Origin: Herbaspirillum sp. GW103
GTDB taxonomy: Bacteria > Pseudomonadota > Gammaproteobacteria > Burkholderiales > Burkholderiaceae_D
DNA: 64,000 nt
Reading direction: 5' to 3'
Assembly: GCF_000261365.1 (NCBI RefSeq)
Contig: NZ_AJVC01000001.1
Location: 124,001-188,000, forward strand
Shown here: in pieces, positions 1-19,700 of the stretch
Layout: the number at the start of each line of letters is the position of its first letter
Position numbering within the stretch: the stretch's first letter is position 1
Notes under the pieces: generated by a model
Database searches by the model: none
The model's input: only the letters and a program-made list of their open reading frames with translations
What the model was told of the DNA's origin: nothing
Position numbers and translations under genes: made by a program

Positions 1-30
1 TCAGCCTGCTAGAATAGCGGGCTGAACGCC
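1..30 (+). terminator. Hairpin at left edge, likely terminator of an upstream gene
   Basis: Arms at 1-10 and 16-25 pair along their whole length, with one G-T wobble, around a 5-nt AGAAT loop. They are followed by ACGCCTTTTG. This fits a weak intrinsic terminator for a plus-strand gene that ends just outside the window. The T-tract is short, so a plain hairpin is possible. Confidence 0.4.
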
Positions 31-116
31 TTTTGTTGCCTGTCCGGCAATGAGCCTGCCGGGTAGCGGCGGGCCAAATTGTTCATACAAGAAAAAAACC
101 GGGCTGGCGCAGTCGC

Positions 117-221
117 TCAGAGCGTGTATTCACCCACCAGATGGGTATAGCTGATCCAGGCGGTAGCGAGCAGGCTGTACAGGGCGACGAGAATGGTGGC
201 CGCAATCAGTGGCAGTTTCAT
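117..221 (-). CDS. Predicted single-span small membrane protein, 34 aa
   Basis: A 35-codon frame with an ATG at 221 encodes a peptide beginning MKLPLIAATI. It consists almost wholly of one hydrophobic segment (about residues 4-24) with a short polar tail ending GEYTL. An AAGGTG Shine-Dalgarno-like sequence lies about 6-7 nt before the ATG. I do not recognise a family. The good ribosome site and the clean one-helix composition favour a real small protein. A frame this short can also arise by chance, and it lies alone on the strand opposite grpE, with an oligo-T stretch downstream on its own strand (about 91-98). Confidence 0.35.
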   Translation of the reverse strand: MKLPLIAATILVALYSLLATAWISYTHLVGEYTL

Positions 222-538
222 GATGACACCTTGTTGGCGCGACAAGAGAGGGGAAGTGGTAAAGCCGTCGAACGAGTTGGCCCCAGCGGGCGAGAACTCG
301 AATTCAGTTTAGGTCGGGCTCGAATTAACTTGAAGTCAGAGTCCGTAATTTCTGTAAGCGCGCGTAACATTTTTCTTCTTGAAATCGCAGAAATAGGCAA
401 AAAGTCGCCGGAAAGTGCCAAAAAGCCCTTGAAAAAGCAGGGAGATACCTTACTTGTGCCGCATCCCATCGTGGACGGCGCCCTGCATCGGACCGCCGCA
501 CGCACGTAACTCATTGATTTGTTGGAGGTAATTCAGGA
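222..538. other. Intergenic region upstream of grpE
   Basis: No protein gene is supported here. Three CTTGAA hexamers resembling a sigma-32 -35 element occur at 329-334, 378-383 and 428-433. Only the last has a partly matching -10 region (CCTTACTT at 448-455, 14-nt spacer). A heat-shock promoter for grpE is expected, but it is not clear which element, if any, serves. The strong ribosome site GGAGG (524-528) fixes the grpE start. Confidence 0.35.
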
Positions 539-1108
539 ATGCAAGACATGGAAAAACAGGAGTCCCCATCCGTCCAGCAAGACAACCCGGCTGTTGAAGC
601 CGCTGCGGCCCCTGCTGCCGAGCAGGCCGCTCCCGCTGCCGCTGCCGAGCCCACGCTGGAAGACAAGCTGGCCGCCGCCGAAGCGAAGGCTGCCGAACTG
701 CAGGATGCCTTCCTGCGTGCCCGTGCCGAAGGCGAGAACATCCGCCGCCGTGCTCAGGAAGACATCGCCAAGGCCCACAAGTTCGCCATCGAAGGCTTTG
801 CCGAATCGCTGCTGGCGGTCAAGGACAGCCTGGAAATGGCCCTGAAGATCGAAAACGCCTCGCTGGAGTCGCTCAAGGAAGGCGTGGACATGACCCTCAA
901 GCAACTGACTTCGGCCTTCGAGAAGAACAAGCTGCAAGAAGTGAGCCCCCAGGCCGGCGACAAGCTGGACCCGATGAAGCACCAGGCCGTCTCGGCCGTG
1001 CCGGCCGAGCAGGAAGCCAATACCGTGGTGGCCGTGCTGCAAAAAGGCTATATGATTTCCGACCGTCTGCTGCGTCCGGCGCTGGTGACGGTGGCCCAGG
1101 GAAAGTAA
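539..1108 (+). CDS. grpE: GrpE, nucleotide exchange factor of DnaK
   Basis: GrpE dimers release ADP from DnaK so that substrate can leave the chaperone. The 189-aa length is normal. Residues 1-40 are a disordered Ala/Pro/Glu-rich tail. A long charged coiled-coil follows (about 40-110), then the compact C-terminal beta-wing region with the family signature around DPMKHQAVS and [16 protein letters not shown]. The ATG at 539 is chosen because GGAGG at 524-528 lies 10 nt upstream; the in-frame ATG at 548 is too far from it. It is followed by dnaK in the usual order, with 155 nt and a separate heat-shock promoter between. Identity is certain from the C-terminal signature and context. Confidence 0.97.
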
Positions 1109-1174
1109 GCGGACCGGCGCCGCAAGAGGGCAAGCGCAAAAGGCATCATTTTTGCTTGTCCCGGTGGTTTCGGC

Positions 1175-1203
1175 GCTTGAAAGTCCGGCTTTCCTCCACA
1201 TAT
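1175..1203 (+). promoter_or_regulatory. Sigma-32 heat-shock promoter of dnaK
   Basis: CTTGAA (1176-1181) is followed after 14 nt by CCACATAT (1196-1203). The sigma-32 consensus is CTTGAA, 13-15 nt, CCCCATNT, so the -35 is perfect and the -10 differs at one position. It lies 60 nt before the dnaK ATG, as expected for the dnaK heat-shock promoter. Confidence 0.75.
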
Positions 1204-1263
1204 TCAAACCATTCAAAACACCTGTAGCCCGACATCCAGGGCTGAAAGAACGAAGGAAAAATC

Positions 1264-3207
<1,944 letters not shown>

Positions 3208-3248
3208 TCCGGGACTGACGCCTCGTTTCCCCTGAGGTCAGCGCTCGC

Positions 3249-3285
3249 GCCCGGGTGCGGTTTACCGCAGCCCGGGCGGATTTTT
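3249..3285 (+). terminator. First hairpin after dnaK, intrinsic terminator or attenuator
   Basis: Arms 3249-3260 and 3265-3277 form 12 base pairs with one bulged G and a TTTA loop, followed by GGATTTTTG. This is a good intrinsic terminator in the dnaK-dnaJ gap. It may only attenuate, since dnaJ usually shares the dnaK transcript. Confidence 0.65.
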
Positions 3286-3331
3286 GAGAAGCATCCACCC
3301 GGCCGGGTTGTTTTTTCGGCCAGGCCGGTAC

Positions 3332-3367
3332 GCCGAGTCCGCAGTCAAAAGCTGAACTCGGCTTTTT
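3332..3367 (+). terminator. Second hairpin between dnaK and dnaJ
   Basis: GCCGAGT (3332-3338) pairs with ACTCGGC (3356-3362). A second inner stem CAG/CTG (3342-3344 with 3352-3354) stacks inside the loop, and CTTTTTC follows. It lies about 50 nt after the first hairpin and about 100 nt before dnaJ, so the two form a tandem terminator-like arrangement. Confidence 0.5.
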
Positions 3368-3464
3368 CACATTGTTGGTTTCCGGTCGTGCGTGCGCGGC
3401 CGCAGATGCAGATGCAGGCCATCGCAGCAGCGACGGAACACAATAACAAGGTGGGTTATACAAC

Positions 3465-4595
3465 ATGGCAAAACGCGATTTTTACGAAGTGCTCGGCCTG
3501 GCGAAGAACGCCAGCGACGACGAAATCAAGAAGGCTTATCGCAAGCTGGCGATGAAGTACCATCCTGACCGCAACCCGGACAGCAAGGGTGCGGAAGACA
3601 AGTTCAAGGAGGTCAAGGAAGCCTACGAGATGCTGTCGGACCCGCAGAAGCGCGAGGCCTATGACCGCTACGGCCATGCCGGCGTCGATCCCAATATGGG
3701 AGCAGGCGGCGGTGCCGGTGCGGGTGGCTTTGCCGATGCCTTCGGCGACATCTTCGGTGATATCTTTGGCGGCGGCGGCGGTGGCCGCGGTCGCAGTTCC
3801 GGCCCGCAGGTCTATCGCGGCGCGGACCTGCGCTACAACCTGGAAATCACCCTGGAGCAAGCTGCCCACGGTTTCGACACCACCATCCGCGTGCCCTCCT
3901 GGGACCAGTGCGATACCTGTCACGGCAGTGGCGCCAAGCCCGGCACTTCGCCGGTCACTTGCACCACCTGCGGCGGTCATGGCCAGGTGCGCATGCAGCA
4001 AGGTTTCTTCAGCATCCAGCAGACCTGCCCGAAGTGCCACGGCAGCGGCAAGATCATTCCGGAACCCTGCACCACCTGCGCTGGCGCCGGCCGCATCAAG
4101 CGCAACAAGACGCTGGAGGTCAAGATCCCTGAAGGTATCGACGATGGTATGCGCATCCGTTCCTCGGGCAATGGCGAGCCGGGTGTCAACGGCGGTCCTC
4201 CGGGCGACCTGTATGTGGAAATCCACATCAAGCCGCATGACGTGTTCCAGCGCGATGGCGATGACCTGCATTGCGAGATGCCGATTTCCTTCGCCAAGGC
4301 GGCACTGGGTGGCGAGATCGAAGCCCCGACCTTGAACGGCAAGGCCTCCTTCTCCATTCCCGAAGGCACCCAGAGCGGCAAGACATTCCGCCTGCGCGGT
4401 AAGGGCATCAAGGGTGTGCGCTCCGGTTATGCGGGCGACCTGTTCTGCCACGTCGTGGTGGAAACCCCGGTCAAGCTGACCGAACGCCAGAAGGAACTGC
4501 TGCGCGAGTTCGAGCAGCTCACCACTGAAGGCGGCGCCAAGCACAGCCCGCAGACCAAGACCTGGAAGGACAAGGTCAAGGAATTCTTCGAGTAA
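3465..4595 (+). CDS. dnaJ: DnaJ, Hsp40 co-chaperone
   Basis: DnaJ delivers substrates to DnaK and stimulates its ATPase. All parts of a type I Hsp40 are visible in the 376 aa: J domain (1-70) with the HPD tripeptide at 33-35, a Gly/Phe-rich linker (about 75-115), a zinc-binding region with four CxxCxGxG-type repeats ([32 protein letters not shown], about 149-205) and the C-terminal peptide-binding domain. AAGGTGGG lies about 10 nt before the ATG. The 257-nt gap from dnaK holds two terminator-like hairpins, so dnaJ may depend on read-through or on its own promoter, which I could not identify. Confidence 0.97.
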
Positions 4596-4602
4596 GTTGT
4601 GA

Positions 4603-4632
4603 CATCAGCATCAGCATCAGCATCAGCATCAG
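4603..4632 (+). repeat. Five tandem copies of CATCAG
   Basis: CATCAG is repeated exactly five times in the short gap between the dnaJ stop and its terminator. It is a simple hexamer repeat outside coding sequence, likely to vary in copy number by slippage. I see no function. Confidence 0.85.
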
Positions 4633-4645
4633 CAGCAAAGCAAAA

Positions 4646-4673
4646 GGCCAGCGTGATTTTCGCTGGCCTTTTT
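4646..4673. terminator. Bidirectional terminator between dnaJ and panB
   Basis: GGCCAGCG (4646-4653) and CGCTGGCC (4661-4668) form an 8-bp stem with a 7-nt loop, followed by TTTTTC on the plus strand. On the minus strand the same stem is followed by TTTTGCTTTG. It sits between the convergent dnaJ and panB ends and can serve both. Confidence 0.85.
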
Positions 4674-4699
4674 CTTGTCCATCGCTTGAGCTCAGGTAC

Positions 4700-5527
4700 T
4701 CAGAAACAATGCTCCTGCGCCGGGAAGCTGCCATCCTTGACCGCCGCCACATAGCGGCGCACCGCCTCCTCGATGCCACTGGCCCCTTCCATGAAGTTGC
4801 GTACGAAGCGGCTCTTGTGGCCCGGGAAAACGCCCAGCATGTCGTGCATCACCAGTACCTGGCCCGAGCAGTCGGGGCCGGCGCCAATGCCGATGGTAGG
4901 AATGCTGAGCCGGTCGGTCACTTCCTTGCCCAGCGTGGCCGGTACCGCTTCGATCACCACCAGAGAAGCGCCCGCCTGCTGCACCGCCAGCGCATCGGCA
5001 TGCAGTTGGGTGGCGCCATCGCTGGTCTTGCCCTGCACCTTGAAGCCCCCCAGCTGGTGCACCGACTGCGGCGTCAGGCCGATGTGGGCGCACACCGGAA
5101 TACCGCGCTCGGTGAGGAACTTGACGGTATCGGCCAGCCACACGCCGCCTTCGAGCTTGATCATCTGCGCGCCCGCCTGCATCAGCAGCGCGGCGTTGCG
5201 GAAGGCCTCCTCGCGGGTCGGGTAGGTGCCGAAGGGCAGGTCGGCGATGATCAGCATGGTACGGCTACCGCGCGCCACCGCTGCCGTGTGGTAGGCCACG
5301 TCCTGAATGGTCACCGGCAGGGTCGAATCGTGACCCTGGCAGACCATGCCCAGGGAGTCGCCGATCAACACCGTTTCCAGCCCGGCGCGCTCCATGAGCG
5401 TGGCGAAGCTGGCGTCATAACAGGTCAGCATGCTGATCTTGTCGCCCTTGGCGCGCATCGCCTGCAGGGTGTGGGTGGTCACCGGCTTGGCGCGCGTAGC
5501 GCCCGATTCCTGAAGATAGCCTGCCAT
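4700..5527 (-). CDS. panB: Ketopantoate hydroxymethyltransferase
   Basis: PanB transfers a hydroxymethyl group from 5,10-methylenetetrahydrofolate to 2-oxoisovalerate, giving ketopantoate for pantothenate and CoA synthesis. The 275-aa protein has the family metal-binding aspartates (IGDSLG with D57, and IIADLPFG near 96) and the catalytic glutamate region [10 protein letters not shown] near 192. The frame stays open far upstream, but the ATG at 5527 is chosen because GGAGG precedes it by about 10 nt and the protein then has the normal length. Its ribosome site overlaps the end of a decayed deoxynucleoside kinase gene. In relatives, dgk and panB are neighbours in an operon with folK, so its upstream partner has been lost here. 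Confidence 0.95.
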
Positions 5528-5534
5528 GAAGAAT

Positions 5535-5824
5535 TCAACCTCCGTGATTGAGAAAGGCGCGCTTGCCGTGCATTTCCTGGATGTGCTGCATCCTTGTGAA
5601 GCGGATCCAGATGCTCGGTGTTGATGGTCGGCACCGACGCCTCTTCGTAGTGATAGAAAAAATGACTGTAGCATTCCGACAGCGGTTGCAGGCAATCCTG
5701 GGACAGGGTTTCCTCCATGCGGATGCCGCGCGCTCCACAGTGCGGCCAGACGGGCGGTCAGTGAGCGCTTGCCAGTTGCGACCGAGCAGTCGATGGCGAT
5801 GCGGCGGCCGCTTTCTAGTGCCAT
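5535..5824 (-). pseudogene. Remnant of a deoxynucleoside kinase gene (internal deletion and frameshifts)
   Basis: Read on the minus strand, three short pieces in three frames match consecutive parts of the bacterial deoxyadenosine/deoxyguanosine kinase family. From 5824, after a GAAGGAAGG ribosome site, comes an N-terminus with a degenerate P-loop ([16 protein letters not shown], then TARLAAL). At about 5735-5740 the frame changes and the sequence jumps to a C-terminal part reading [20 protein letters not shown] and then PTINTEHLD. Near 5590 the frame changes again to [18 protein letters not shown], followed by a stop at 5535-5537, which resembles the family's C-terminus. About 96 codons remain of an expected 210 or so; the middle, including the LID region, is missing. 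The position directly before panB is where dgk lies in many Burkholderiales. The match is from memory of the family, not a search. Confidence 0.7.
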
Positions 5825-6236
5825 GCCTTCCTTCGCCCGGCACGTCGGGTGCGGCATTGTAGTTGATTTCACTGCGGCCGGCGCTCATGCCTGCTTTGGC
5901 TTTTGTTGATTCGATGCAATATCCTGTCCATCCTCAGGTGGTGCAGACAACTCAAGCGGAATTCGGCCTTTATTCCACGCAAGGCCAGACCCGCTCAGCC
6001 AGCACAATAGGCTGTGGGGCGGTGCGCGCAGGCTGGAACCTGTCGCGAGGTGCATTGGTGCCGGGTTGTCCTCGGGGCGGAGGCGCTCAATCGCCTTTGT
6101 CTCCTTCCATGCCTGGCCTGGGCAGGAGGGCCTGTCAAAAGAAGCGCCAGTTCCTGCCGTAAACACCGTCAGGGGCAGGGTACGTGCACCGTGGCCGTAC
6201 GGTTTGCCCCGAGCTGACAACAACCAACAGGAAAAC
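5825..6236. other. Divergent intergenic region between the dgk remnant and the chemosensory operon
   Basis: No convincing gene is present. The open frames on both strands have no family character. It should contain the promoter of the chemosensory operon, but I found no clear sigma-70 or sigma-28 (TAAA/GCCGATAA) element. It is the left boundary of the segment that separates folK from panB. Confidence 0.4.
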
Positions 6237-7337
6237 GTGGCTGTGAAATCGCTTCGCAATATCTTGCCGGTGCTGTGCCTGGTGAATCTGCTGCTGTTGA
6301 TGATGCTGGCCCAGCACTGGTGGCTGGGGGCGCTGGTGGGCCTGCTGATCGGCGGTGCCTTCTACCTGACTTGCCTGCCCGCACCGGCGGCGGTGCCGGT
6401 GGCGTCCCCGCAGCCGCCGCTGGCGCAGGCCGCCGCAGCAGCGACCTTGCCGCCGGTGCCTTCCGCACCTGTGGATGGACAGGCCTCGCTGGCCGCACTG
6501 CTGCGCGAAGTACTGCCGGTGTGGCAGGGCAATGTGCAACTGGCGCGGGCACAGACGCAATCGGCCATCGACGGTTTGACCGCCCGCTTCGTCGGCATCC
6601 ATGAGCGCCTTGGCGGCGCACTGGACCCCGCCAGACACGGCGCAAATGGCGAGATCCTGCAGACCGTGCAGCATGCGGCTGAACAATTGGGCAGTATTGC
6701 CTCGGCGCTGGAAGGCATGCTGGCCTCGCGTCAGCTGCTGGTGACCAAGTTCGACAGCCTCATGGCGGCCAATGACGAGATTCGCCGCCTGGCCCAGCAA
6801 AATGAGCAACTGGCCGGCCAGACCGGCGTGACCGATCTGCTCAGCGACGAGCAGAGCTGGCAGGAACTGGCCGAGCGCTCGGCCGAGAACAGCCGCCAGA
6901 TCGCCGCCCGCGCCAAGAGCGCACGCCAGCAGATCATGGCGGCCATTGGCGCCAACGGGGACGCCGCCGCCAGTACCGACGGTGTCGCTGAGAATTCGCG
7001 CGCCGTGATTGACCAGATCATTGCCGACTTCCGCCATTCGGCCATGAAGCTCACCACCACCGTGGAGGCGCTGGAGGACGAAGGCCGCGAAGTGGATCGC
7101 GAAGTATGTGACATCCTGGTCCACCTGCAATTCCAGGACCGCATCAGCCAGATCCTGGATCACGTGCAGCAGGACATCCTGCGTCTGCGCAGCGCGGCCA
7201 TCGAAGCGCAGGCGCTGCCCTCGCCGCAGCAGTGGCTGGCCGAGCTCGAAAAGACCTACACCACCCAGGAACAGCGCCAGATTCATGCCGGCCAGCAGGG
7301 CCATCCCGTGCCACCGTCGCAGGTGGATTTTTTCTGA
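6237..7337 (+). CDS. Membrane-anchored chemotaxis protein with a CheZ-like DxxxQ motif
   Basis: This 366-aa protein opens the chemosensory operon. Two hydrophobic stretches lie near the N-terminus (about residues 8-45). They are followed by a Pro/Ala linker and long helical, MCP-like sequence. Near the C-terminus QFQDRISQIL places D301 and Q305 four residues apart in a helix. This is the same spacing and surroundings as the catalytic Asp and Gln of CheZ (E. coli D143 and Q147, FQDLTGQ). It lacks HAMP and the canonical MCP signalling tip. A CheY phosphatase tied to the membrane is therefore inferred. No other cheZ is present in the window. GTG at 6237 is used; GTG at 6243 fits the AGGA at 6229-6232 equally well or better. 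Next gene: a lone receiver, 17 nt on. Confidence 0.6.
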   Translation: MAVKSLRNILPVLCLVNLLLLMMLAQHWWLGALVGLLIGGAFYLTCLPAPAAVPVASPQPPLAQAAAAATLPPVPSAPVDGQASLAALLREVLPVWQGNVQLARAQTQSAIDGLTARFVGIHERLGGALDPARHGANGEILQTVQHAAEQLGSIASALEGMLASRQLLVTKFDSLMAANDEIRRLAQQNEQLAGQTGVTDLLSDEQSWQELAERSAENSRQIAARAKSARQQIMAAIGANGDAAASTDGVAENSRAVIDQIIADFRHSAMKLTTTVEALEDEGREVDREVCDILVHLQFQDRISQILDHVQQDILRLRSAAIEAQALPSPQQWLAELEKTYTTQEQRQIHAGQQGHPVPPSQVDFF

Positions 7338-7354
7338 GACAACGAGGAACCGAG

Positions 7355-7723
7355 ATGGAAAAGAGCATATTGATCGTTGACGATTCCTTCAGCCTGCGGC
7401 AGACCATCACGGCCGCCCTCAAGAGCGCCGGCTACCAGGTCGAAGAAGCTGCCGACGGCCTTGAAGCGCTGAAGAAACTGGATGGCCGCAAGTTCAATCT
7501 GGTCATCTCCGACCTCAACATGCCCAACCTGGATGGCCTGTCCTTCGTACGCGAGATGAAGCAGATGCCGGCCTACAAATTCACCCCCGTCATCATGCTG
7601 ACCACCGAAAGCAGCGAGGTGCGCAAGCAGGAAGGCAAGGCCGCCGGCATCCGGGCCTGGGTCCACAAGCCCTTCCTGCCGCCGGTGCTGCTCGATGCAG
7701 TGGCCAAGCTGGTGCAACCCTGA
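7355..7723 (+). CDS. cheY: CheY-like single-domain response regulator
   Basis: A stand-alone receiver domain of 122 aa, expected to be phosphorylated by the CheA encoded 350 bp downstream. The acidic pocket D9/D10, phosphoacceptor D53 (VISDLNMP), switch Thr in MLTTES (T83/T84) and K105 (HKPF) are all present, so it should be active. The ATG at 7355 is chosen over earlier in-frame codons because GAGGAA lies 6 nt upstream and the receiver fold begins immediately. With no DNA-binding or enzymatic domain it should act by protein contact. Its target is unknown, and no flagellar motor genes lie nearby. The membrane protein upstream may dephosphorylate it. Confidence 0.92.
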   Translation: MEKSILIVDDSFSLRQTITAALKSAGYQVEEAADGLEALKKLDGRKFNLVISDLNMPNLDGLSFVREMKQMPAYKFTPVIMLTTESSEVRKQEGKAAGIRAWVHKPFLPPVLLDAVAKLVQP

Positions 7724-7765
7724 GCGATCCAGAGGACCGTTGAAGACCCAACCGAGACCCCGAAA

Positions 7766-8080
7766 ATGCCGCTGACGTATTCCGTGCAAGAGGACCGGCT
7801 GCTGCTCACGCTGAGTGGTGGCCTGACCATTTTCCAGGCAGCCGAACGCAAGCCGGAATTGCTGCACGCGCTGACACTTGCGCAGACCCACGTAGTGCTG
7901 GATCTGTCCGGTGTGGACGAGCTCGATACCGCCGGCATCCAATTGCTGCTGCTATTGCGCCGCGAGCTGGCCAACAGTGGTCGCCAGCTGGAGATCGGTG
8001 CCTACAGTCCGGCCGTGCTAACCGCACTGGACCTGCTGCAACTGCATGAGCGCTTCAGTCCCGCCGTGGAGGCCGAATGA
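7766..8080 (+). CDS. STAS-domain protein
   Basis: A 104-aa protein that is essentially one STAS domain, the anti-sigma-factor-antagonist fold. The signature LDLSGVDELDTAGIQLL places T55 where SpoIIAA-type proteins carry a phosphorylatable Ser or Thr. STAS proteins of this size occur inside some alternative chemosensory operons, where they may bind a kinase or a multidomain receptor. No partner anti-sigma kinase is encoded in this window, so its role here is open. It is placed between cheY and cheA. Its last codons overlap the cheA start (ATGA at 8077-8080), indicating translational coupling with CheA. Confidence 0.8.
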   Translation: MPLTYSVQEDRLLLTLSGGLTIFQAAERKPELLHALTLAQTHVVLDLSGVDELDTAGIQLLLLLRRELANSGRQLEIGAYSPAVLTALDLLQLHERFSPAVEAE

Positions 8081-10281
8081 AGAAGGATTCCGCACGCGAT
8101 GCCGTCGTCCAGGAAGCCCGCGAACTGCTGGTGGCCATGGAAGCCGCCTTGCTGCAGATCGAAATGGAAGGTCCGAGCCGCGACAGCATCAATGCCATCT
8201 TCCGGGCCGCCCATACCATCAAGGGCTCGGCCGGCCTGTTTGCTTTCGACAGCATTGTGCAGTTCACCCACCAGGTGGAGCATGTGCTGGACCTGGTGCG
8301 CGAAGAGCGCCTGCCGCTGAACGCGTACATGATGTCCTTGCTGCTGCAGTGTGGCGATTACATCGGTGAACTGGTCGATGCCATCGAACGCAATCAGGAG
8401 GCCGAGGAGCCCAACGCCGAACGTCGTGCCACGCTGCTGGCCGAACTGGACGAGGTGGCGCAATCGGCCATTGCATCGCGGGAGCTGGTCTCTGGTCAGC
8501 CGACCTTGGTCGGGCAGCGCCTTGCCGGCAGTCCTGCTGCCGACCCGCTCGCCACCGACGAGGCAAGCATGGATGCCACCTTGCAGGCGGCGGCCGATTA
8601 TCCTTACTGGCACCTGTCGCTGCAGTTCAACGAGAACGTCTTGCGCGATGGGCTCGATCCGCTGTCTTTCCTGCACTACCTGCGTTCGCTGGGGCGCATC
8701 GTCGCCATCCTGCCGGTGGAGGCGGGCATGCCTGCGGCCGCCGCCATGGATGCCGAGAGCTGTTATCTCGGCGTGGAAATCTGCCTGGTCTCCGATTCCA
8801 CCCGGCAAACGCTGGAGGATGTGTTTGAATTCGTGCGCGATGACAGCCGTATCGACATCCTGCCTCCGCACAGTCCCCTGTGCGCGTATGCCGCGGTACT
8901 GCAACGCCTGGCCCGCGAGGACGCGGCCCGTCTGGCCGGCCAGTGGCGCAGTCTGTCATTGTTCAATGAAGTCCAATGGCGTTGCCTGGGAGCCGTCACC
9001 CTGGAGGAAGCGGTCGCCGCCGTGGTGCCGGCGGCCACCGACGCGGGCGCGCGGCCTCGCCCACTGGAGGAGCGGCGCGCGCAGGAACAGAAATTCATCA
9101 AGATCGAGGTCTCCAAGCTGGACCAGTTGATCGACCTGGTGGGCGAGCTGGTCATCGCCGGTGCCAGTGCACGCCTGATCGCACGGCGTCGCAAGGACAG
9201 CCAGTTCGAGGAGGCCACCCAGGCCATCGACAGCCTGATGGAACAGATCCGCGATGCCGCGCTGACGTTGCGCATGGTGCAGATCAATGAAGTATTCCAG
9301 CGCTTCCCGCGCATCGTGCGCGACATCGCCCGCGATCTCGACAAGGACATCGAGCTGACCATGACCGGCTCCGAGACCGAGCTGGACAAATCCATGGTGG
9401 AGCGCCTGGCCGATCCGCTGATGCACATCGTGCGCAATGCTATCGATCACGGCATCGAGCCGGCCGCCGAGCGTATCGCTGCCGGCAAGCCGGCCAAGGC
9501 ATCCCTGCGGCTCAATGCCATGCACGAATCGGGCAGCGTGCTGGTGGAGGTGATGGACGATGGTCGAGGCATGGATCGCGCGCGTATCCTGGAAAAAGCC
9601 ATCGCCCAGGGACTGGCCGCGCCCGATGCCGAGCTCAGTGATGGCGAGATATTCCGCTTCGTCTTCGAGCCCGGATTTTCCACCGCGCAGCAGGTCACTG
9701 AACTCTCGGGACGTGGTGTGGGGATGGACGTGGTCAAGCGTAACATCGATGTCCTGCAGGGTGAGGTAGGCATCGATACCGAACCAGGCCGTGGCACCGT
9801 GGTGCGCATCCGCCTGCCGCTGACGCTGGCCATCATCTCGGGCTTCCAGGTGGTGGTGGGCAATGCGGTCTTCGTCATCCCGCTGGATATGGTGGTGGAG
9901 TGCATCGACATGCCACCCCGGCAGAGCGGCAGCCACATCGTCTCGGTACGCGGTGAGCCCTTGCCGTTCGTCCCGCTGCGCGAACTGTTTGACCTGCCTG
10001 CGCGCGACCAGGGCAGGGGACGCAAGAGCCTGGTGATCGTACAGTACGGACAATTGCGCGCCGGCCTGCTGGTCGACGGATTGCTGGGCGAGTGCCAGGC
10101 GGTGATCAAGCCGCTGGGCCGCTTGTTCGGCAAGGTCAAGGGGCTGTCCGGATCGACCATCCTGGGCGATGGCCGGGTCGCATTGATCCTGGATATCGCG
10201 CACCTGGTGCAGCATACCCAGCAACAGGAACAAGGCAATACGGCGGCCTACGCCGAAAGCAGCGTGGCGTCGGCGCCATGA
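8077..10281 (+). CDS. cheA: CheA, chemotaxis histidine kinase
   Basis: CheA autophosphorylates in response to the MCP and passes phosphate to CheY, CheB and probably the receiver-EAL protein. In 734 aa I see an HPt domain with H46 ([10 protein letters not shown]), a variable middle part of about 200 residues with no recognisable P2 domain, the P3 dimerisation segment ([14 protein letters not shown], about 345-360), a HATPase domain with N box [12 protein letters not shown]1 box DDGRGMD and G2 box [10 protein letters not shown], and a C-terminal CheW-like P5 domain. All catalytic motifs are intact. The ATG overlaps the STAS gene stop. The long replaced P2 region suggests a subfamily different from the E. 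coli type. Confidence 0.95.
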
Positions 10282-10322
10282 CGGGCGCCGATCGGACGCC
10301 CGCACCACGAGGGGAAGCGAGC

Positions 10323-12143
10323 ATGCAAGAATCGATGACCAACAGGATGAGCATCAAGCAGATCTTCATCTGGCTGTGTTTAGTCCTGTCCATCCTGGTG
10401 GCGGTGGTGATCAGTCTCACCAGTACCTTGCGCCAGGCCAATGCGGCGCTCGAACATGCGCACCAGTCGCGCTATGAATCGGCAGCGCTGGCCAATGAAC
10501 TGCGACGTACCACCGAGGACATGACCAAGTTCGCGCGCGCCTACGTGACCACGGGCGATCCCAATGACGAGGACCGGTACTACATGATCCTCGACATCCG
10601 CAACGGCAAGCGTGCGCGGCCCTCCAACTATGATCGCTTCAACTGGGATCTGGTCAGTGCCCGCAAACTGCCGGTGGAGGCGGGTGCCCAGGCGGTGCCG
10701 CTGAGTGAACTGATGAAGCGTGCCGGCTTTACCGAAGACGAACTGGCCAAGATGCAGGAGGCCCTGAAACTGGCCGATCAGCTCTCGCGCATCGAGATTA
10801 CCGCCTTCCATGCGGTCAAGGGCGAGTTCGATGATGGTCAGGGCAAGTTCACCGTGGTCGGCGCACCCAACCAGGCCATGGCGCAGGAGTTGGTGTTCGA
10901 CCAGACCTACCGTGCGCTGTTCGGTCGCGTGATGACACCGATCAATGACTTCCTGCGCCAGGTCGACGAACGCACCCAGGCCCGCGTGCTCAAGGCCGGT
11001 CGCGAGTACGTCGAACTGGAACAGAAGATATTCTGGCTGCTGAGCGCCTCCGTGGTAGTGCTGTTTGCCTGTCTCGGGTTTGCCTATCGCACCATCCGCT
11101 CGCAGATCGGTGGCGAGCCGCGCGATGCCATGAGCGTATTGCGCCGCGTGGCCGAAGGTGATCTGACGGTGAGTGTGCCGCTGCGCAAGAACGACCGGGT
11201 CAGCGTGCTCTACAGCACCCAGCAGATGGTCAACAAATGGACCGACGTCATCGGCGATGTCAGCGGCACCGCCAGTGCTTTGGCCTCGGCCTCGGAAGAG
11301 ATTTCCTCGTCCTCCCAGGCGCTCTCGCACAACGCTTCGCAGCAGGCCGCCAACGTCGAGGAAACCAGCGCCTCGGTGGAAGAGATCACCGCCACCATCG
11401 CCCAGAATGCCGACAATGCCAGGACCACCGATGGTATTGCCAGCCTCTCGGCAAGCGCCGCCACCGAGGGGGGACAGGCGGTGCGCGAGACCGTGGCGGC
11501 GATGAAGCAGATTGCCAGCAAGATCGGCATCATCGATGACATCGCCTACCAGACCAACCTGCTGGCACTGAACGCGGCCATCGAAGCCGCGCGCGCCGGT
11601 GAACACGGCAAGGGCTTTGCCGTGGTGGCGGCCGAAGTGCGCAAGCTGGCCGAACGCTCGCAGAGTGCCGCACAGGAAATCATTGCAGTGGCCGAGAACA
11701 GCGTGGGCCTGGCCGAAAAGGCGGGCGGCCTGCTCAACCAGATGGTGCCATCGATCCGCAAGACCGCTGACCTGGTGCAGGAAATCGCTGCGGCGTCGGC
11801 GGAACAATCGACCGGGCTGGAACAGATCAACAATGCCGTGCACCAGATGGCACAGACTACGCAGATGACCGCATCGGCCTCGGAGGAATTGTCGGCAACC
11901 TCGGAAGAGATGAGTGCCCAGGCCATCCATCTGCAGGATCTGATGCGTTTCTTTCGTGTGGACGAGTTGCAGAAGCCGGCGGTACGTGCCAGTGGCGCAC
12001 CACAGTCGGGGGTGGATGGCAGTCGCCGCAAGCCTGCCCGGCATGCCGCGCAGGACAAGCGCGAGAGCGCACGGCGTCTGTCCATGCTGGATGTGGATGA
12101 GGATGCGCCGGGCGTGGATGAATCTTCGTTCAAGCGTTTCTGA
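10323..12143 (+). CDS. Methyl-accepting chemotaxis protein
   Basis: This is the receptor of the operon. The 606 aa contain TM1 (about 12-31), a helical periplasmic sensor region of about 200 residues, TM2 (about 237-257), a HAMP-like linker and a cytoplasmic helical bundle. The hairpin tip around 400-435 matches the family ([20 protein letters not shown]). The sensor contains [19 protein letters not shown], known from other betaproteobacterial receptors, but I cannot name the ligand. The C-terminus (DESSFKRF) lacks the NWETF-type tether for CheR and CheB. The ATG at 10323 is chosen because GGGGAAG precedes it at good spacing; an earlier ATG at 10278 would add 15 residues without a ribosome site. 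Confidence 0.95.
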
Positions 12144-12249
12144 GAGGACAGATCATGGCGTTGATCCAGTCCCGTTTCACCGCGCCGCCTGCGGGCCGCG
12201 TACGCATCAATTGGCCGCGGGATGAGCGCGGCAGCAAGGAGAGCAGGCC

Positions 12250-12825
12250 ATGCCCAGCGTATCGTTGAATGGCGAATCCGCCCGCAAGCGGCAGCAGGAA
12301 GAAGTCATCGAAAGCCGCCAGTTCCTGACCTTCCTGGTCGGAACCGAGAGCTTCGCCATGCCCATTGCCAGCATTCGCGAGATCATCGAATTCGGCGGTC
12401 TGACCGAAGTGCCGCTGATGCCCGAGTTCCTGCGCGGCGTCATCAACCTGCGCGGTTCGGTGGTGCCGGTCATCGATCTGTCGGTGCGCTTTGGTCGCGC
12501 GCCCACGGTGGTGGCCAAGCGTACCTGCGTCATCATCATGGAACTGATCCAGGACGAGCAGATGCTGTTGCTGGGCGTGATGGTCGATGCCGTCAGCGCC
12601 GTGCTGAGCATCGGCGTTGACAGCATCGAACCGCGTCCGTCCTTTGGCGCGGGCATCCGCGCCGATTTCATCGAAGGGATGATCAACGTCAATGAGCGTT
12701 TCATCGTCGTGCTGGACGTGCAGCGCGTATTGTCGGTGGATGAACTGGCCAGCCTCCTGGGAATGAGCGCCGAGGATGCCCTGGGTGGCGGGCCGGTGCT
12801 GCCGGCGCAAACGCAACAGGAGTAG
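12250..12825 (+). CDS. cheW: CheW, chemotaxis coupling protein
   Basis: CheW links the receptor to CheA in the signalling array. The 191 aa hold one CheW domain with characteristic segments: REIIEFGGLTEVP, RGVINLRGSVVPVIDLSVRFG and FIEGMINVNERFIVVLDVQ. Extensions at both ends (about 20 residues each) are polar and have no known motif. AAGGAGAGCAGGCC lies before the ATG. The gap of about 106 nt from the receptor gene contains only a 37-codon frame of doubtful reality. It is followed 4 nt later by cheR, so the two are surely cotranscribed. Confidence 0.95.
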   Translation: MPSVSLNGESARKRQQEEVIESRQFLTFLVGTESFAMPIASIREIIEFGGLTEVPLMPEFLRGVINLRGSVVPVIDLSVRFGRAPTVVAKRTCVIIMELIQDEQMLLLGVMVDAVSAVLSIGVDSIEPRPSFGAGIRADFIEGMINVNERFIVVLDVQRVLSVDELASLLGMSAEDALGGGPVLPAQTQQE

Positions 12826-12829
12826 GTCC

Positions 12830-13723
12830 ATGGCCAGCACCGGCAACCTGGCAGGCAGGCGCGACGCCGTACACGATCGGTGTGCGGGCCAGACCGTTTC
12901 TGGCGCCAGCGCTGCCGATGCTGAGGTCAGCGATGAGGACATGCTGCTGTTCCAGCAATTGTTCAAGCAGCACATCGGCCTGCATTTGCCCTTGTCCAAG
13001 AAGGCGCTGCTGCAAAGCCGCCTCAGTCATCGTCTGCATGAACTCGGCCTGTGCGGACTGGCGCAGTATCATCGTCTCATCAGTGCGGCCGATGGCGCCG
13101 AGGAACGGCAGCGCGCCATTGATCTCATCACCACCAATGAAACCTATTTCTTCCGTGAACCGAGTCATTTCGATTTCCTGACCCAGGAGCTGTTGCCGCA
13201 GTGGCGTGACCACAAGAGCCTGCGCGTCTGGAGCGCTGCCAGCGCTACCGGTGAAGAAGCCTATTCCCTGGCCATGTTGCTGGACCATCACCGACCCCCC
13301 GGCAGCTGGTCGGTATTTGCTTCCGATATCAGCACCCGCGTCTTGCGCTTTGCCCGCCGCGCCCTTTATCCGATGGCGCGGGGCGAGAATATTCCACGTC
13401 TGTATCTGCGCCGCTATTGCCTGCTCGGCACCGGTGAGTACGAGGGGCATTTCCTGGTGCAGGCCGGCCTGCGTGCCAAGGTCGAATTTGCCCGGCGCAA
13501 TCTGACCGCGCTGCATGAACACGAGGATGGACTGTACGACCTGATCTTCCTGCGCAACGTCATCATCTATTTCGATTGCGATACCAAGCTGCAGGTCTTG
13601 CGCGACGTGATCGCCCGCCTGCGCCCCGGCGGCTACCTGGTGGTGGGGCATTCCGAATCGCTGCACGGCATGGAACTGGACCTGCTGATGCACTCCCCCT
13701 CGATTTATCGGAGGCCGCAATGA
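12830..13723 (+). CDS. cheR: CheR, MCP glutamate methyltransferase
   Basis: CheR transfers methyl groups from S-adenosylmethionine to glutamates of the receptor for adaptation. The 297 aa show a short disordered start, the all-helical N-terminal domain (about 35-100; DLITTNETYFFRE at its end) and the Rossmann methyltransferase domain with VWSAASATGEEAYSLA as the SAM loop and FLRNVIIYF as the RNVLIYF equivalent. The common GCSTGEEPYS is altered to SAASATGEEAYS, a conservative variant. The start at 12830 follows AGGAG at short spacing; the in-frame upstream sequence lies inside cheW. The stop overlaps the cheB start (ATGA), showing coupling of the two adaptation enzymes. Confidence 0.94.
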   Translation: MASTGNLAGRRDAVHDRCAGQTVSGASAADAEVSDEDMLLFQQLFKQHIGLHLPLSKKALLQSRLSHRLHELGLCGLAQYHRLISAADGAEERQRAIDLITTNETYFFREPSHFDFLTQELLPQWRDHKSLRVWSAASATGEEAYSLAMLLDHHRPPGSWSVFASDISTRVLRFARRALYPMARGENIPRLYLRRYCLLGTGEYEGHFLVQAGLRAKVEFARRNLTALHEHEDGLYDLIFLRNVIIYFDCDTKLQVLRDVIARLRPGGYLVVGHSESLHGMELDLLMHSPSIYRRPQ

Positions 13724-14919
13724 GTGGACCGTCTGCATCGGGGGCAGCCTCCATCATCCGCGTGATGGTCATCGATGATTCTTCGGTGGTACGCCAGCTG
13801 GTGCAGCAGCTGCTGGCGCAGACTGACGATATCCGCGTCATCGGTACCGCACCCGATCCGGTCTTTGCCCTGCGCAAGATGCAGCAGGAGTGGCCCGACG
13901 TGATCCTGCTCGATATTGAGATGCCGCGCATGGATGGCATCACCTTTCTGCGTCAAATCATGGCCACGCGGCCCACGCCGGTCATCATGTGCAGTGCGCG
14001 TGCCACTGGTGCGGGCGATATCACTGCCGAGGCGCTGGCCGCCGGCGCAGTCTCGGTGATTGCCCGTCCGCAACTGGGTGTGCGCGATTTCCTTCGTGAA
14101 GCGGTGGTCGAACTGGCCAGTGCCATCCGGGCCGCAGCGCTGGCCGGCCCCGGCACCAGGGCAGCGGCGGGCGCATTGCCCGGCAGTACCGGTGCCATGG
14201 CCTCCGCGCTCCGGCTGCGCCCGGTCAAAGCAACATCACGAGAAATACTGCATGATGAGGGCTGGTCTGCGGTCCTGCAGCGTCATTCGGCCGATGCGAT
14301 ACTGGCCGCGCCGGGAAGGGAGGATGGTTATCGTCCACCGACTGCGCGCATCGTTGCCATCGGTGCCTCCACCGGAGGGCCGCAGGCGCTGGAGCGGGTA
14401 CTGGGATGCCTGGACCACCGTTGTCCGGGCGTGGTGGTGGTGCAGCACATGCCGCAGCGTTTCACGCGCAGTTTCGCCGACCGCCTGCATCGCATTTCCG
14501 GTGCCGAGGTCAAGGAAGCCGAGCATCACGATCTGGTTCTGCCGGGGCGGGTGCTGATCGCTCCCGGCGGTCGACATCTGGTCGTGCGGCGCGATGGTCT
14601 GCAGTACTATGTGGAAACATTGGATGGTCCGCTGGTGAGCCGGCACAAGCCTTCGGTGGATGTGCTGTTCCGCTCGCTGGCCAAGGCGGCGGGCAGCAAT
14701 GCAGTGGGCATCATCATGACCGGCATGGGGGACGATGGAGCAAGAGGGATGCGGGAGATGGCCGATTGCGGCGCCGCCACCTATGCTCAGGACGAGGCCA
14801 GCAGCGTGGTCTTCGGCATGCCGAAAGAAGCGATACACATGGGCGGCGTCCGTGACGTCCTCCCGCTCGATCATATCTCCGCAGTGATAGAACAATATGC
14901 CTCCAGAGAATCTCAATGA
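13720..14919 (+). CDS. cheB: CheB, receptor methylesterase/deamidase
   Basis: CheB removes methyl groups from the receptor, opposing CheR. The 399 aa comprise a receiver domain (12-130) with D19/D20 and phosphoacceptor D65 (LLDIEMPRMDG), a linker of about 70 residues, and the methylesterase domain with the Ser of GASTGGPQAL (S217), the His of QHMP and the Asp of MTGMGDDGA. The receiver lysine, normally in a KP motif, is arginine here (IARPQLG), which may alter phospho-activation. The linker is longer and less conserved than in E. coli. The ATG at 13720 overlaps the cheR stop, with GGAGG a few nt upstream. The end overlaps the receiver-EAL gene by 23 nt. Confidence 0.95.
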   Translation: MSGPSASGAASIIRVMVIDDSSVVRQLVQQLLAQTDDIRVIGTAPDPVFALRKMQQEWPDVILLDIEMPRMDGITFLRQIMATRPTPVIMCSARATGAGDITAEALAAGAVSVIARPQLGVRDFLREAVVELASAIRAAALAGPGTRAAAGALPGSTGAMASALRLRPVKATSREILHDEGWSAVLQRHSADAILAAPGREDGYRPPTARIVAIGASTGGPQALERVLGCLDHRCPGVVVVQHMPQRFTRSFADRLHRISGAEVKEAEHHDLVLPGRVLIAPGGRHLVVRRDGLQYYVETLDGPLVSRHKPSVDVLFRSLAKAAGSNAVGIIMTGMGDDGARGMREMADCGAATYAQDEASSVVFGMPKEAIHMGGVRDVLPLDHISAVIEQYASRESQ

Positions 14920-16159
14920 GCTGATCGAATCCGCACTGGTCGTCGACGACAGTGCCCTGCAGCGCCAGCACAGCGTGTCGCTGCTGCAGGCGCTGGGCGT
15001 CGATCTGATCTACGAGGCCGGCAACGGCAACGAGGCGCTGGACCTGCTGGCGCTGTTGAAACTGCCGCCGGGCCTGGTCGTGATCGACCTGGAGATGCCG
15101 GGCATGGATGGCATTGAACTGATCCAGCACTTGCAGCAAAAGGGTATCGACATTCCTCTGATCGTCGCCTCCAGTCGAGAGACCTCGCTGCTGTTGTCGG
15201 TGGAGACCATGATCCACGCGCTGGGCATGAACCTGATCGGCGTATTGCAGAAGCCGCTCAACCAAGGCCAGCTGCACGCAGCGCTGCGATCTTTCCGGCC
15301 CCACGGTGGCGACGCTCTTGCCGATGCCGATCCCCAGCCTTCCATGTGTGAGAGCGATCTGGGCGTGGCCATCGGCGGTGGTCAGGTGCTGCCGTATTTC
15401 CAGCCCAAGGTAGATGTGCAGACAGGCATCCTCAAAGGCGTGGAAGCGCTGGCGCGCTGGGTGCATCCGGAACGCGGCATGGTGCCGCCGGACCGATTCA
15501 TTCCGCTGGCAGAGCAATGCGGCCTGATTCACGATCTCACCATCAGCATGATGGACCAGGCCATGGCCCAGGCTGCCGTCTGGCACAGCCGCGGCCTGGC
15601 GATCAAGGTGGCGGTGAATCTCTCGCCGCTGTCGCTGGAACAGCCGGATTTCCTGCATCGTATTCTGGAGCTGGTGGACAAGCACGCGTTGCCGGCCGAA
15701 AACGTGGTGCTGGAAATCACCGAGAGTTCGGTGGTGGCGCACAAGGGTAATTCACTGGGCATGCTGGCGCGCTTGCGCCTGAAGGGATTTGGTCTGTCGA
15801 TTGACGATTACGGCACCGGCTTCTCATCGATGCAGCAGTTGGCGCGTATCCCCTTCACGGAACTGAAGATTGACCGCTCCTTCGTGCATGGTGCACATGA
15901 CCGCAAGAACCTGCGCGTGATTCTGCAATCCGCGCTGGACATGGCGCAACGGCTGGAGCTGGTGACGGTGGCCGAAGGCGTGGAGACCATGGAAGACTGG
16001 CGCCTGCTGCAGGACTTCGGTTGCAGCCTGGGGCAGGGCTATCTGATCGGCAAGCCCATGCCGGCCAATGAATTGCCGTTATGGTTGAAGGGACATCATC
16101 GCCGGCTCGGCGAATTGCGGCCGCTGGGGAAGGGGAGTGTTAGCGGTGGTGTGACTTGA
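14897..16159 (+). CDS. Receiver-EAL protein, predicted c-di-GMP phosphodiesterase
   Basis: This 420-aa protein joins a receiver domain (about 10-125; phosphoacceptor Asp in VVIDLEMPGMDG, Lys in LQKPL) to an EAL domain (about 160-405). The EAL motifs look complete: GVEALARW, NLSPLSL, LEITESS, IDDYGTGFSS, ELKIDRSFV, VAEGVET and GQGYLIGKPM. It should hydrolyse c-di-GMP to pGpG in a phosphorylation-dependent way, like PvrR and RocR type regulators. Its start lies inside the cheB end (23-nt overlap), so it belongs to the chemosensory operon and is probably an output of this CheA. It would link signalling to biofilm or pilus behaviour rather than to the flagellum. No partner diguanylate cyclase is in the window. 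Confidence 0.9.
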   Translation: MPPENLNELIESALVVDDSALQRQHSVSLLQALGVDLIYEAGNGNEALDLLALLKLPPGLVVIDLEMPGMDGIELIQHLQQKGIDIPLIVASSRETSLLLSVETMIHALGMNLIGVLQKPLNQGQLHAALRSFRPHGGDALADADPQPSMCESDLGVAIGGGQVLPYFQPKVDVQTGILKGVEALARWVHPERGMVPPDRFIPLAEQCGLIHDLTISMMDQAMAQAAVWHSRGLAIKVAVNLSPLSLEQPDFLHRILELVDKHALPAENVVLEITESSVVAHKGNSLGMLARLRLKGFGLSIDDYGTGFSSMQQLARIPFTELKIDRSFVHGAHDRKNLRVILQSALDMAQRLELVTVAEGVETMEDWRLLQDFGCSLGQGYLIGKPMPANELPLWLKGHHRRLGELRPLGKGSVSGGVT

Positions 16160-16364
16160 GATTCGTTGTTGGACTGTTGAATTGAGCGTGGAAATAATCT
16201 GTTTTCGGTACGTCGCCGGTTCTTTATGCTGCTTCCGTTTGAGGCAGACTCTGCATCATTGCCGTACTAATTTTGGGGTGCAGGTCAACATCTCATCTGA
16301 AAAGTGTGCGCTCAGGATTAGGCTATGATGAATCGACTGAAAATGTATCTCCGAGATTCTAAGC

Positions 16365-16784
16365 TTAGTTCCCATCAATCCATACATCGTTTATCCAATC
16401 TGCAAGCGTCGGCCAGCTCTCCGAACTCACTCCATTTCCACTCCAAAATCTGATCTTACCCGTTTGATCCAGGCAGTAATAATCACCGTTATCCTCACAT
16501 ATGGGGAGCCAATTTGAAGGAACTCCCAACTGCCTTGCAACTTTTACCGCTCGCAGCAAGTCTCCCCTGCTATTGATATCAGGAGAAAGAACTAACGGCT
16601 CAATGTTCCCAAAAAAAATGGTGCTCGCGTTCTTTAAAAAATAACGATATTCGTCGCCAAAGGTAATTCCAATTTTCGACTCATAGTTATCAATCAATTC
16701 ATCATCAGGCTCCAGCAATCTAATCCGTTCACCCGCTGATGCATTTATCAAAGCGTCTACTGCCTCAACCAATTTATTATCCAT
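16365..16784 (-). CDS. cdiI: SMI1/KNR4 (SUKH) family immunity protein
   Basis: A 139-aa cytoplasmic protein with the SUKH pattern: an N-terminal helix, then IDNYESKIGITFGDEYRYFL (the family's E-x-x-x-G-x-x-x-P/G-x-x-Y region), and a C-terminal beta part with WLPICEDNGDYYCLD and ending in SWPTLADWINDVW. SUKH proteins commonly neutralise nuclease toxins in polymorphic toxin systems. The gene begins 6 nt after the stop of the large haemagglutinin-like gene, on the same strand, where a CdiI belongs. It is much richer in A and T than neighbouring genes, which suggests it came with the toxin tip. Binding to the LHH nuclease tip is inferred from position alone. Confidence 0.8.
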   Translation of the reverse strand: MDNKLVEAVDALINASAGERIRLLEPDDELIDNYESKIGITFGDEYRYFLKNASTIFFGNIEPLVLSPDINSRGDLLRAVKVARQLGVPSNWLPICEDNGDYYCLDQTGKIRFWSGNGVSSESWPTLADWINDVWIDGN

Positions 16785-16790
16785 TTCATC

Positions 16791-19700
16791 TCACTTAAAA
16801 TCGTTCGCCCGGCTCTTCCAATAATTACGCCGCCACGTATTGAATACACTGCGATTAATGCCAGATGGGATTTCCGAGCCGGCATTTATGTGTATAGCAG
16901 AGTAGTTTTCCTGATGGAACGTCTGCATAACTTCTGCAATGGGACCATCCTGATTTTGCAACATATGATGTAGATTGACGGGGTTCCCATCCTTCCCAAT
17001 CGGGGCTCTGCCAGCCTGCATTAGTTCTAGATTGGTTTTTCCGGTTTGGCTATCCACCCGATTAGGGTCGATAAGGTCGTCGCGTCGATATACAAAATTT
17101 CCAGCGACTTCTACTGGCTCAGCACTCCAGTATTGCCTTTCTTGCCCGAAATATCTCTTTGCTACTTCCTGCCTGGAATATACATTCGGCAAATCCTGAT
17201 CCGCAGTAAATCGATCACGATCAGGCGTTACCGCCGGTAGCTTTTCCTTTGGCAAGACAAGCTTCCTTGCCTCACCCACCAGGGCTGGAGTAGTAGCCGC
17301 GACAGCAGACAACGCTGCCATCCGGACAAGACGATAGTTTATCGCCTGCTTTACCAGTCCATCACAGGCAGCCGCGCTCAGTCCACCACAGTTATTCGTC
17401 CTGAAGGTCGCAACCTCCTTCGCCTGATCAACATCCGTTCCCGTCAGGGACGCGTTGCCCATCACGGAACCATAACTGATCACATTCGCTTGACGCCCGA
17501 TCAGCGTATCTTCAAGTTTTGTATAGCCGAATGGCAATACCTTTACCTCGTTGACACTCGCCGCTTCAGCCAGATTTTTTTGGACGCACGCTACATCCCC
17601 TGAAATGATGCAACTTTGCACTGCGGCGATATTCTGGTCAGATATCTCCTTGTATTTTTTAAAGATTGAGGTGACGTCTCCGTCGCTACAACGACCGTTC
17701 TTCTTGCCGCAAGCCTCAATTTCCTTCTTGAGTGCGGCAGCATCAGCATGCTTGAGAAAGTTATTGACGACCTCGTTATAAGCCGCAGCCCCTCCCGGCG
17801 TCCCACCCACAGCTGCGCCCACCAAGGTACTCGACAGCGCCGTCAACACCTTCGCCAGATCAGCATCCACACCAGCATTATTCAGGGCTGCAGCCACATT
17901 AGGTGCGGCTAAGGTACCCACTCCCGCACCAGCTGCACCGGCGAGACCACCTGTGAGCCCGCCCACAACGGTGTGCGCCAAAGCCCGCATGTTTCCATCT
18001 GGCCCCCACTTAGTTTCCAACGCACTGGCCTGATCATTGAGCTGTGTTGCCACGGCAGGATCAGTTGCGGCATTGGCCTGCTTGCGCAAGTCTTCCGCCT
18101 TCTTCTGCTGTTGCTCAGCATAGTCTCCGATCAACTTGGAAGCCTGCTGTCCAAACGCCTGTGTAATCTTGGCCTGCGCCTCTACATCCTCACGCAGTTG
18201 ATTGCTATCCCAGTTCTTGGCCAAGCTATTGCTACTGTCCTTGCCGGTACGCACAGACGTATCCAACGAGGCCACCGCGTGATCTGGACTCTGGCCGGTT
18301 TTTTCCTGTTGTGCCTGTGCGTTCGTAATGGTCACGGCAGCGCCAGAAACGCCACTACGCGTCACGCTCGTCTCGCTGCCCGATGCGCTGCCAATCCCAG
18401 CACCTCCGCCTGGCTTACCACCAGAGGTTCCGGCGCTAACGCTCTGACTCTGCGCCGAGTATTGACTCCGATTCTGGATATCACCGCTGGTCAGCGTCCC
18501 CGTCGTCAGGCTGTTCTTACCCTGCTCCACCGCCTTGTCCGTGCTGGCAATCTGCGCACCCTTCAGATCCGTATTGCCTTTAACGTTGACCTGGAATCCA
18601 CCATCGCCGGATGTGATCCCCGCCTGCTGGCCTACATTCGCGTAGTCCGCATCCACACGACTGCGGCTTGCGCTGATGCTTCCTCCAGAAGAAGGGCCTA
18701 TCGTGGCGCTGCCGCCAATGCTCTGGTCCCGACTCTTGAAGGTGCTGGTGTCCTGTACGCTGGCGATGTTCAGATCACGGCCCACATTCGCCGCCACCTG
18801 TTCACCTGAGACGGCTGCCCCAATCAGATTGGTATCGCGCCCAGATTCAATCTTGACCTGCCCGCCCGCACGCACCTGCGTCGTGACGTTGGACACATCT
18901 TTGCCATCACTATTGCCACGACTCCCCGCCGCGTTGGCGGTAACACCAAACTGGGCTTTGGTACCAAACTGCGCAGTAAAGCCAACTCCCCACGACGACG
19001 ACGACCGGTCACCATGCTGTACATCCGTGTTTTGAGCAGCGATGAGATTGATATCGTTGTCCGCCTTGAGCGCCAGATTGCCCTTGGCATTGATGTCACT
19101 GCCTGCAATGGTGATGTTGCTGTTAGCGCCGTCCCCCTTGGCGCTGATGCTCATGTCGCCACCGGAAACAACGGTAGAGCCGCGTTGCATCACCGTGTTC
19201 TGTTCAGTACGACTGCTGTTCTGGCTGCTACCAATCGTGGCGCTGATGCCGACGTTGGCCGAACCCTCGGCAGCGCCTTTCTGCATCTCTCCCACGGCGC
19301 TATAAACCGACATGCCCGCCGTTGCAGCAGCCAGTGCCTGTGCGCGGCCACTCTTGGTCTTGCTGGCCGCCTCCGCCATCTGCTGCACCGTCTGCACCGC
19401 CGACAACACCGGACTGGTCACCGCCACCGTCACCCCTTGCTGACGGAACTTGTCCTCGGTCACGGTACGGCTGCTCTGCTGTGCAGCGAGAATGCTGACC
19501 GTCCGGGCCACGATGTCGATGTCGCCACCCGGTGCCAGCACATCGCTACCCACCTGCGTATAGCGATTGCCCGCCACGATGCCCACATCGCCTTGCACGC
19601 TGCCAATGGTCGATGCCGACGCAGTCTCGCTATTGCGATCCACATCGCGGCTCTGCATGCGGCTACCCACCGTCACGCCGATGCCCGCCCCCATCACGCC

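Follow-up and report, generated by a model that had tools for sequence, protein, structure and literature searches.

The window analysed here is a stretch of 64,000 nucleotides from the genome of Herbaspirillum sp. GW103, in which panB lies on the minus strand, directly preceded by the remains of a deoxynucleoside kinase (dNK) gene (Table 1). These remains form three minus-strand segments following each other in order in three different frames, an arrangement proposed in the initial annotation and borne out by tblastn with the intact dNK of the congener G019 and by DNA alignment.

Table 1. Features of the dNK remnant and its surroundings, in window coordinates
Feature	Position	Strand	Basis or remark
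dNK pseudogene remnant	5535..5824	minus	290 bp left of the original 642 bp; aligned as DNA over its full length with G024, G025, G028 and G019, and tblastn
N-terminal segment, codons 1 to ~31	5731..5824	minus	up to the 332-bp deletion, junction ± ~4-6 bases; DNA alignment
Late-middle segment, codons ~142-188	5591..5730	minus	second frame, between the 332-bp and 20-bp deletions; tblastn and DNA alignment
C-terminal segment with original stop	5535..5590	minus	third frame; tblastn and DNA alignment
Spoiled P-loop, CSVATGKRS	5762..5788	minus	GPIGAGKTS in the six nearest intact relatives
AAGGAAGG, likely former dNK ribosome site	5826..5833	minus	read from sequence
Promoter-like island TGAAATCAACTACAATGCC, with TACAAT -10-like hexamer	5853..5871	minus	conserved upstream of dNK; upstream of panB in G018, G017 and G012
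GGAGG, panB ribosome site	5539..5543	minus	overlaps the end of the dNK frame; also in G018, G017 and G012
panB, 275 aa (PF02548)	4700..5527	minus	
374-aa open frame joining the old dNK start to PanB, probably by accident	4700..5824	minus	

Searching window positions 1-20000 by tblastn with the intact 213-aa dNK of G019 (L022:1836-2477:-) matched residues 140-190 to 5739-5587 (73% identity) and residues 196-213 to 5591-5538 (89% identity), both printed with an E-value of 2.6e-26 that we took as the joint score of linked pieces. Residues 1-69 were matched to 5824-5639 (43%, E 7.4e-7), a piece in which only ~residues 1-31 represent the true segment according to the DNA alignment. The homology to dNK was upheld by end-to-end alignment with six intact 642-bp genes that immediately precede panB in close relatives, with which the remnant shares 79-85% DNA identity (240/290 bases with G024, 245/290 with G019). 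Aligned from ATG to stop with G024, G025 and G028, it displays exactly two gaps, of 332 bp and 20 bp; with G019, G010 and G011, the same program splits the large gap into several pieces. Both deletions shift the frame and are disabling lesions, and 352 of the 642 bases are missing (642 - 332 - 20 = 290), i.e. 54.8%, in agreement with the earlier estimate of about 55 percent. The internal deletion had been placed near 5735-5740: a single large deletion was indeed recovered, its junction lying a few bases away at ~5730/5731 (placement ± ~4-6 bases), and the second frame change announced near 5590 corresponds to the 20-bp deletion at 5591/5590. GCGCG-like short stretches occur at the large junction in relatives, on its left side in G024 and G025 and on its right side in G028, so that this sequence would be compatible with a large deletion between short repeats of this kind.

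Intact P-loops follow the motif GxxxxGK[ST], and GPIG[AV]GKT is present in 22/22 intact dNK genes of the congeners. In the remnant, the changes G13C, P14S, I15V, G16A, A17T and T20R account for the spoiled P-loop that had been recognised from the window alone. The window copy has no intact P-loop and is spread over three frames, where a functional PF01712 member has one open frame of ~200 aa, and a Pfam scan of its first and second frames returned no match (the 18-residue third piece being below scan length). The start codon, the purine-rich site ahead of it and the stop beside the GGAGG of panB are kept, as the initial annotation had stated for the start-side ribosome site and the stop.

Comparing the window with four intact relatives over 286 sites revealed 36 changes private to the window lineage, distributed as 15, 11 and 10 over the three codon positions. 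These correspond to 8.5 synonymous and 27.5 nonsynonymous changes, and the resulting dN/dS of ~1.06 is as expected of neutral decay. Over the same codons, dN/dS was 0.11-0.19 between intact relatives (four pairs), and that of panB was 0.03-0.07 between the window and six relatives. The frame-shifting deletions, the spoiled P-loop and this neutral rate all point to the loss of function initially supposed, and the search for an intact copy elsewhere in the genome, rated 99.99% complete, found no PF01712 match (the same search being positive in 7/14 control genomes). That the similarity could be due to chance, or the lesions to an assembly error, deserves practically no credence given the E-value of the linked tblastn pieces, the private substitutions that accompany the deletions and the presence in G018 of a different remnant at this locus; no point in its favour was found. 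Relaxed constraint before the loss was also considered, the pairwise median dN/dS of intact dNK being 0.19-0.20 in the window's clade vs 0.087 in the other clade. The difference was not significant among ten sister or near pairs (six and four; Fisher p 0.14), so that a weakening of dNK is not visible ahead of its loss.

The order dNK-panB, which had been called typical, was found in most of the 80 named panB loci compared. With flanks of up to 4 kb searched by tblastn at E ≤ 1e-4, 58 of them show a dNK match ahead of panB, always in the same orientation, and 22 show none. The spacing is within 213 bp at 57 of the 58 loci and reaches 1787 bp at one (L130); at L061, where little upstream DNA is available, the match covers residues 163-212 only. 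Intact 213-aa dNK genes could be read at 22 congener panB loci, all in front of panB. The nearest PanB loci are those of H. aquaticum IEH 4430 (L051, 96%), Herbaspirillum sp. AP02, a Herbaspirillum MAG and sp. ASV7, the last two showing no dNK match at panB. The remnant thus relates to the PF01712 family (non-TK1 dNK/dGK/dAK) by homology over both ends, and differs from it by the loss of 55% of its length, of its frame and of its P-loop; the intact G019 protein scores PF01712 at 104 bits for a cut-off of 27. Among solved deoxynucleoside kinases, the nearest to the G019 protein is 8puu (Deoxynucleoside kinase, E 2.7e-16), followed by 2jaq/2jas (Deoxyguanosine kinase, E ~1e-10), and these are too distant to tell which substrate the lost enzyme used, the purine deoxynucleosides of the initial annotation being putative substrates.

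Taken as a whole, 5535..5824 is almost certainly the dead dNK gene of a former dNK-panB unit, whose ends would have been kept for panB. Pseudogenes that arise in bacterial operons through internal deletion are a known kind, and the window remnant, judged by its lesions, is an ordinary one. It shares with them the frameshifting deletions, the neutral substitution rate and the retained gene order, without essential difference, and here several remnant sizes coexist with intact copies within one genus. Titles and abstract openings of the papers listed on dNK, on Herbaspirillum/Burkholderia and on salvage gene loss contained no account of this pseudogene. The added value lies in the independent, repeated loss of the gene and in the retained control signals.

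Across the genus, PF01712 was present in 22 of 33 congeners and absent in 11 (G003, G004, G008, G012, G015, G016, G017, G018, G023, G026 and G027), of which G027 and G017 have completeness ratings of 63% and 87%. Mapped on a tree built from the dnaK-dnaJ DNA of 34 genus genomes and two Noviherbaspirillum rows, the presence or absence of dNK implies at least 7 state changes, or 6 without G003, G015 and G027 (incomplete or unresolved), a count that is blind to loss versus gain; the remnants show that the direction is loss. In this tree, the window belongs to a starred group of four whose other three members are intact, so that its loss is recent and separate from those of G018 and of G012 with G017. 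The G018 remnant covers residues ~152-213 (55% identity, tblastn) and differs from that of the window, while G012 and G017 retain only a short C-terminal scrap in the DNA alignment and are blank at the locus by tblastn. In G004, tblastn aligns 14 C-terminal residues immediately ahead of panB, at an E of 0.11 that is too weak to count, and neither remnant nor island was found before panB in G016, G026, G023 and G027. G003 and G015, whose dnaK contig ends short of panB, were counted only as lacking PF01712; the panB search was negative for G003 and yielded no better than a 32% match for G015. As read from these genomes, the same dNK gene has been lost several times among the congeners, independently and through different deletions. 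With intact, partly deleted and erased copies within one genus, the course of gene loss before panB becomes directly visible.

Some minor observations accompany this survey. The panB of G003 was not found despite a completeness rating of 99%, reflecting either a contig gap or a true loss. G012 harbours a broken second dnaK-like copy (G012:C426:2490-3829) with 4 TGA and 2 TAA inside, and second, stop-free dnaK matches occur in G016 (82%), G026 (82%) and G004 (77% identity).

Upstream of the remnant, the promoter-like island is identical at 19/19 positions in the window genome (G000), G018, G017 and G012, and at 15-19 of 19 in the 14 intact members of the window's clade, where it lies 671-695 bases from the panB start. 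This distance is 325 bases in G000, 195 in G018, 79 in G017, 79 in G012, 101 in G004 and 126 in G008. In the other clade, CTGACA, 17 bases and TACAAT were recognised by eye in intact G031, G022, G005 and G013 and in the losers G004 and G008; in intact G006, G001, G030 and G029 of that clade, the best island match fell inside dNK. No -35 hexamer is recognisable in the island of the window's clade, and a consensus promoter scan of window 5500-6300 returned no complete promoter. Its conservation and its -10-like hexamer nevertheless lead us to infer that the island would be a promoter. Since it survives in 6/10 losing genomes with a readable panB front, window included, panB has probably inherited the signals of the old dNK-panB unit, and this pattern of kept ends would be limited to losers other than G016, G026, G023 and G027. 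An unrelated intact gene at this place in relatives, named in the initial annotation as contrary evidence, was not encountered: 22 congeners carry an intact dNK there, and the 79-195 bases between island and panB in G018, G017 and G012 leave no other gene in its place.

These observations suggest a course of events in which the lineage's ancestor carried a dNK-panB transcription unit, with the end of dNK lying at the panB ribosome site. The 332-bp deletion may have arisen between short GCGCG-like stretches, and, once the kinase was dispensable, selection would have held only the parts needed by panB, namely the upstream promoter region and the panB ribosome site. Both ends would be retained and the middle gone because panB depended on the promoter and on the GGAGG at the end of dNK, and the remnant would now form a transcribed leader of panB. 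The position of the remnant between the conserved promoter-like island and panB could also suggest that it is retained as a structured or regulatory leader, but the distance between island and panB varies freely among the losing genomes, from 79 to 325 bases, which makes such a role extremely improbable.

Somewhat awkward for purely dead sequence is the joint retention of the start, of the ribosome-like site and of an uninterrupted frame into panB, a frame that reaches 390 aa when read from the GTG at 5872 (4700-5872, minus). The two deletions could accordingly have fused the remnant to panB, so that it now encodes the N-terminal extension of a 374-aa PanB, a reading that would fit the stop-free stretch from 5824 to panB behind the old dNK start and its ribosome-like site. 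We consider this fusion very unlikely, however. The frame entered after the large deletion is stop-free in 18/22 intact dNK genes, so that openness into panB is expected, and panB has its own start and GGAGG intact. Among the best 120 of 8000 scored relatives, none covers more than 74% of the frame, i.e. PanB alone; the 95 residues from 5824 to 5538 have no Pfam match, and the remnant evolves with a dN/dS of ~1, counted on dNK codons. No conserved, constrained N-terminal extension was therefore found. The open frame probably reflects chance openness in coding sequence of such composition, and homology places the true PanB start at 5527. Gene calling based on open reading frames only might wrongly extend PanB by ~99-115 residues into the remnant, which profile-based annotation would be expected to miss.

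Regarding nucleoside salvage, TK1-type kinases (PF00265) had no match in G000 and matched 4/34 genomes (G005, G008, G022 and G030), weakly, at 21-25 bits for a cut-off of 20.6. G008 is the only one of these without dNK, so that neither PF01712 nor PF00265 occurs in 11/12 genomes without PF01712, the window's included. A report that Betaproteobacteria are without thymidine kinases is given in a passage of PMC7046229 citing Tinta et al. 2012. Other salvage enzymes were also examined as possible compensation for dNK: PF01156 (nucleoside hydrolase) is found in 20/34 genomes, G000 excepted, and by hand count in 5/12 genomes without dNK vs 15/22 with it; PF07831 in 5/34, G000 excepted; and PF01048 in 34/34, with two matches in G000. 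Together with that of PF00265, these distributions give no pattern explaining the loss. With dNK gone, little or no direct deoxynucleoside phosphorylation would be expected in G000, barring an unrecognised kinase, and the 11 genomes without both families are expected to be invisible to assays following labelled deoxynucleosides into DNA. A loss of the only recognisable deoxynucleoside kinase that is favoured in the genus rather than merely tolerated, e.g. by blocking the activation of toxic nucleoside analogues encountered with plants or in soil, appears unlikely; if true, it would account for at least 6 state changes even though the surviving copies are clearly under purifying selection.

Beside dnaK-dnaJ-panB, a divergent cluster of chemotaxis type occupies window 6237-10281 on the plus strand. 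It encodes a response regulator (PF00072), a CheA-like kinase with Hpt, H-kinase_dim, HATPase_c and CheW matches, and a 366-aa protein for which no Pfam family passes the cut-off.
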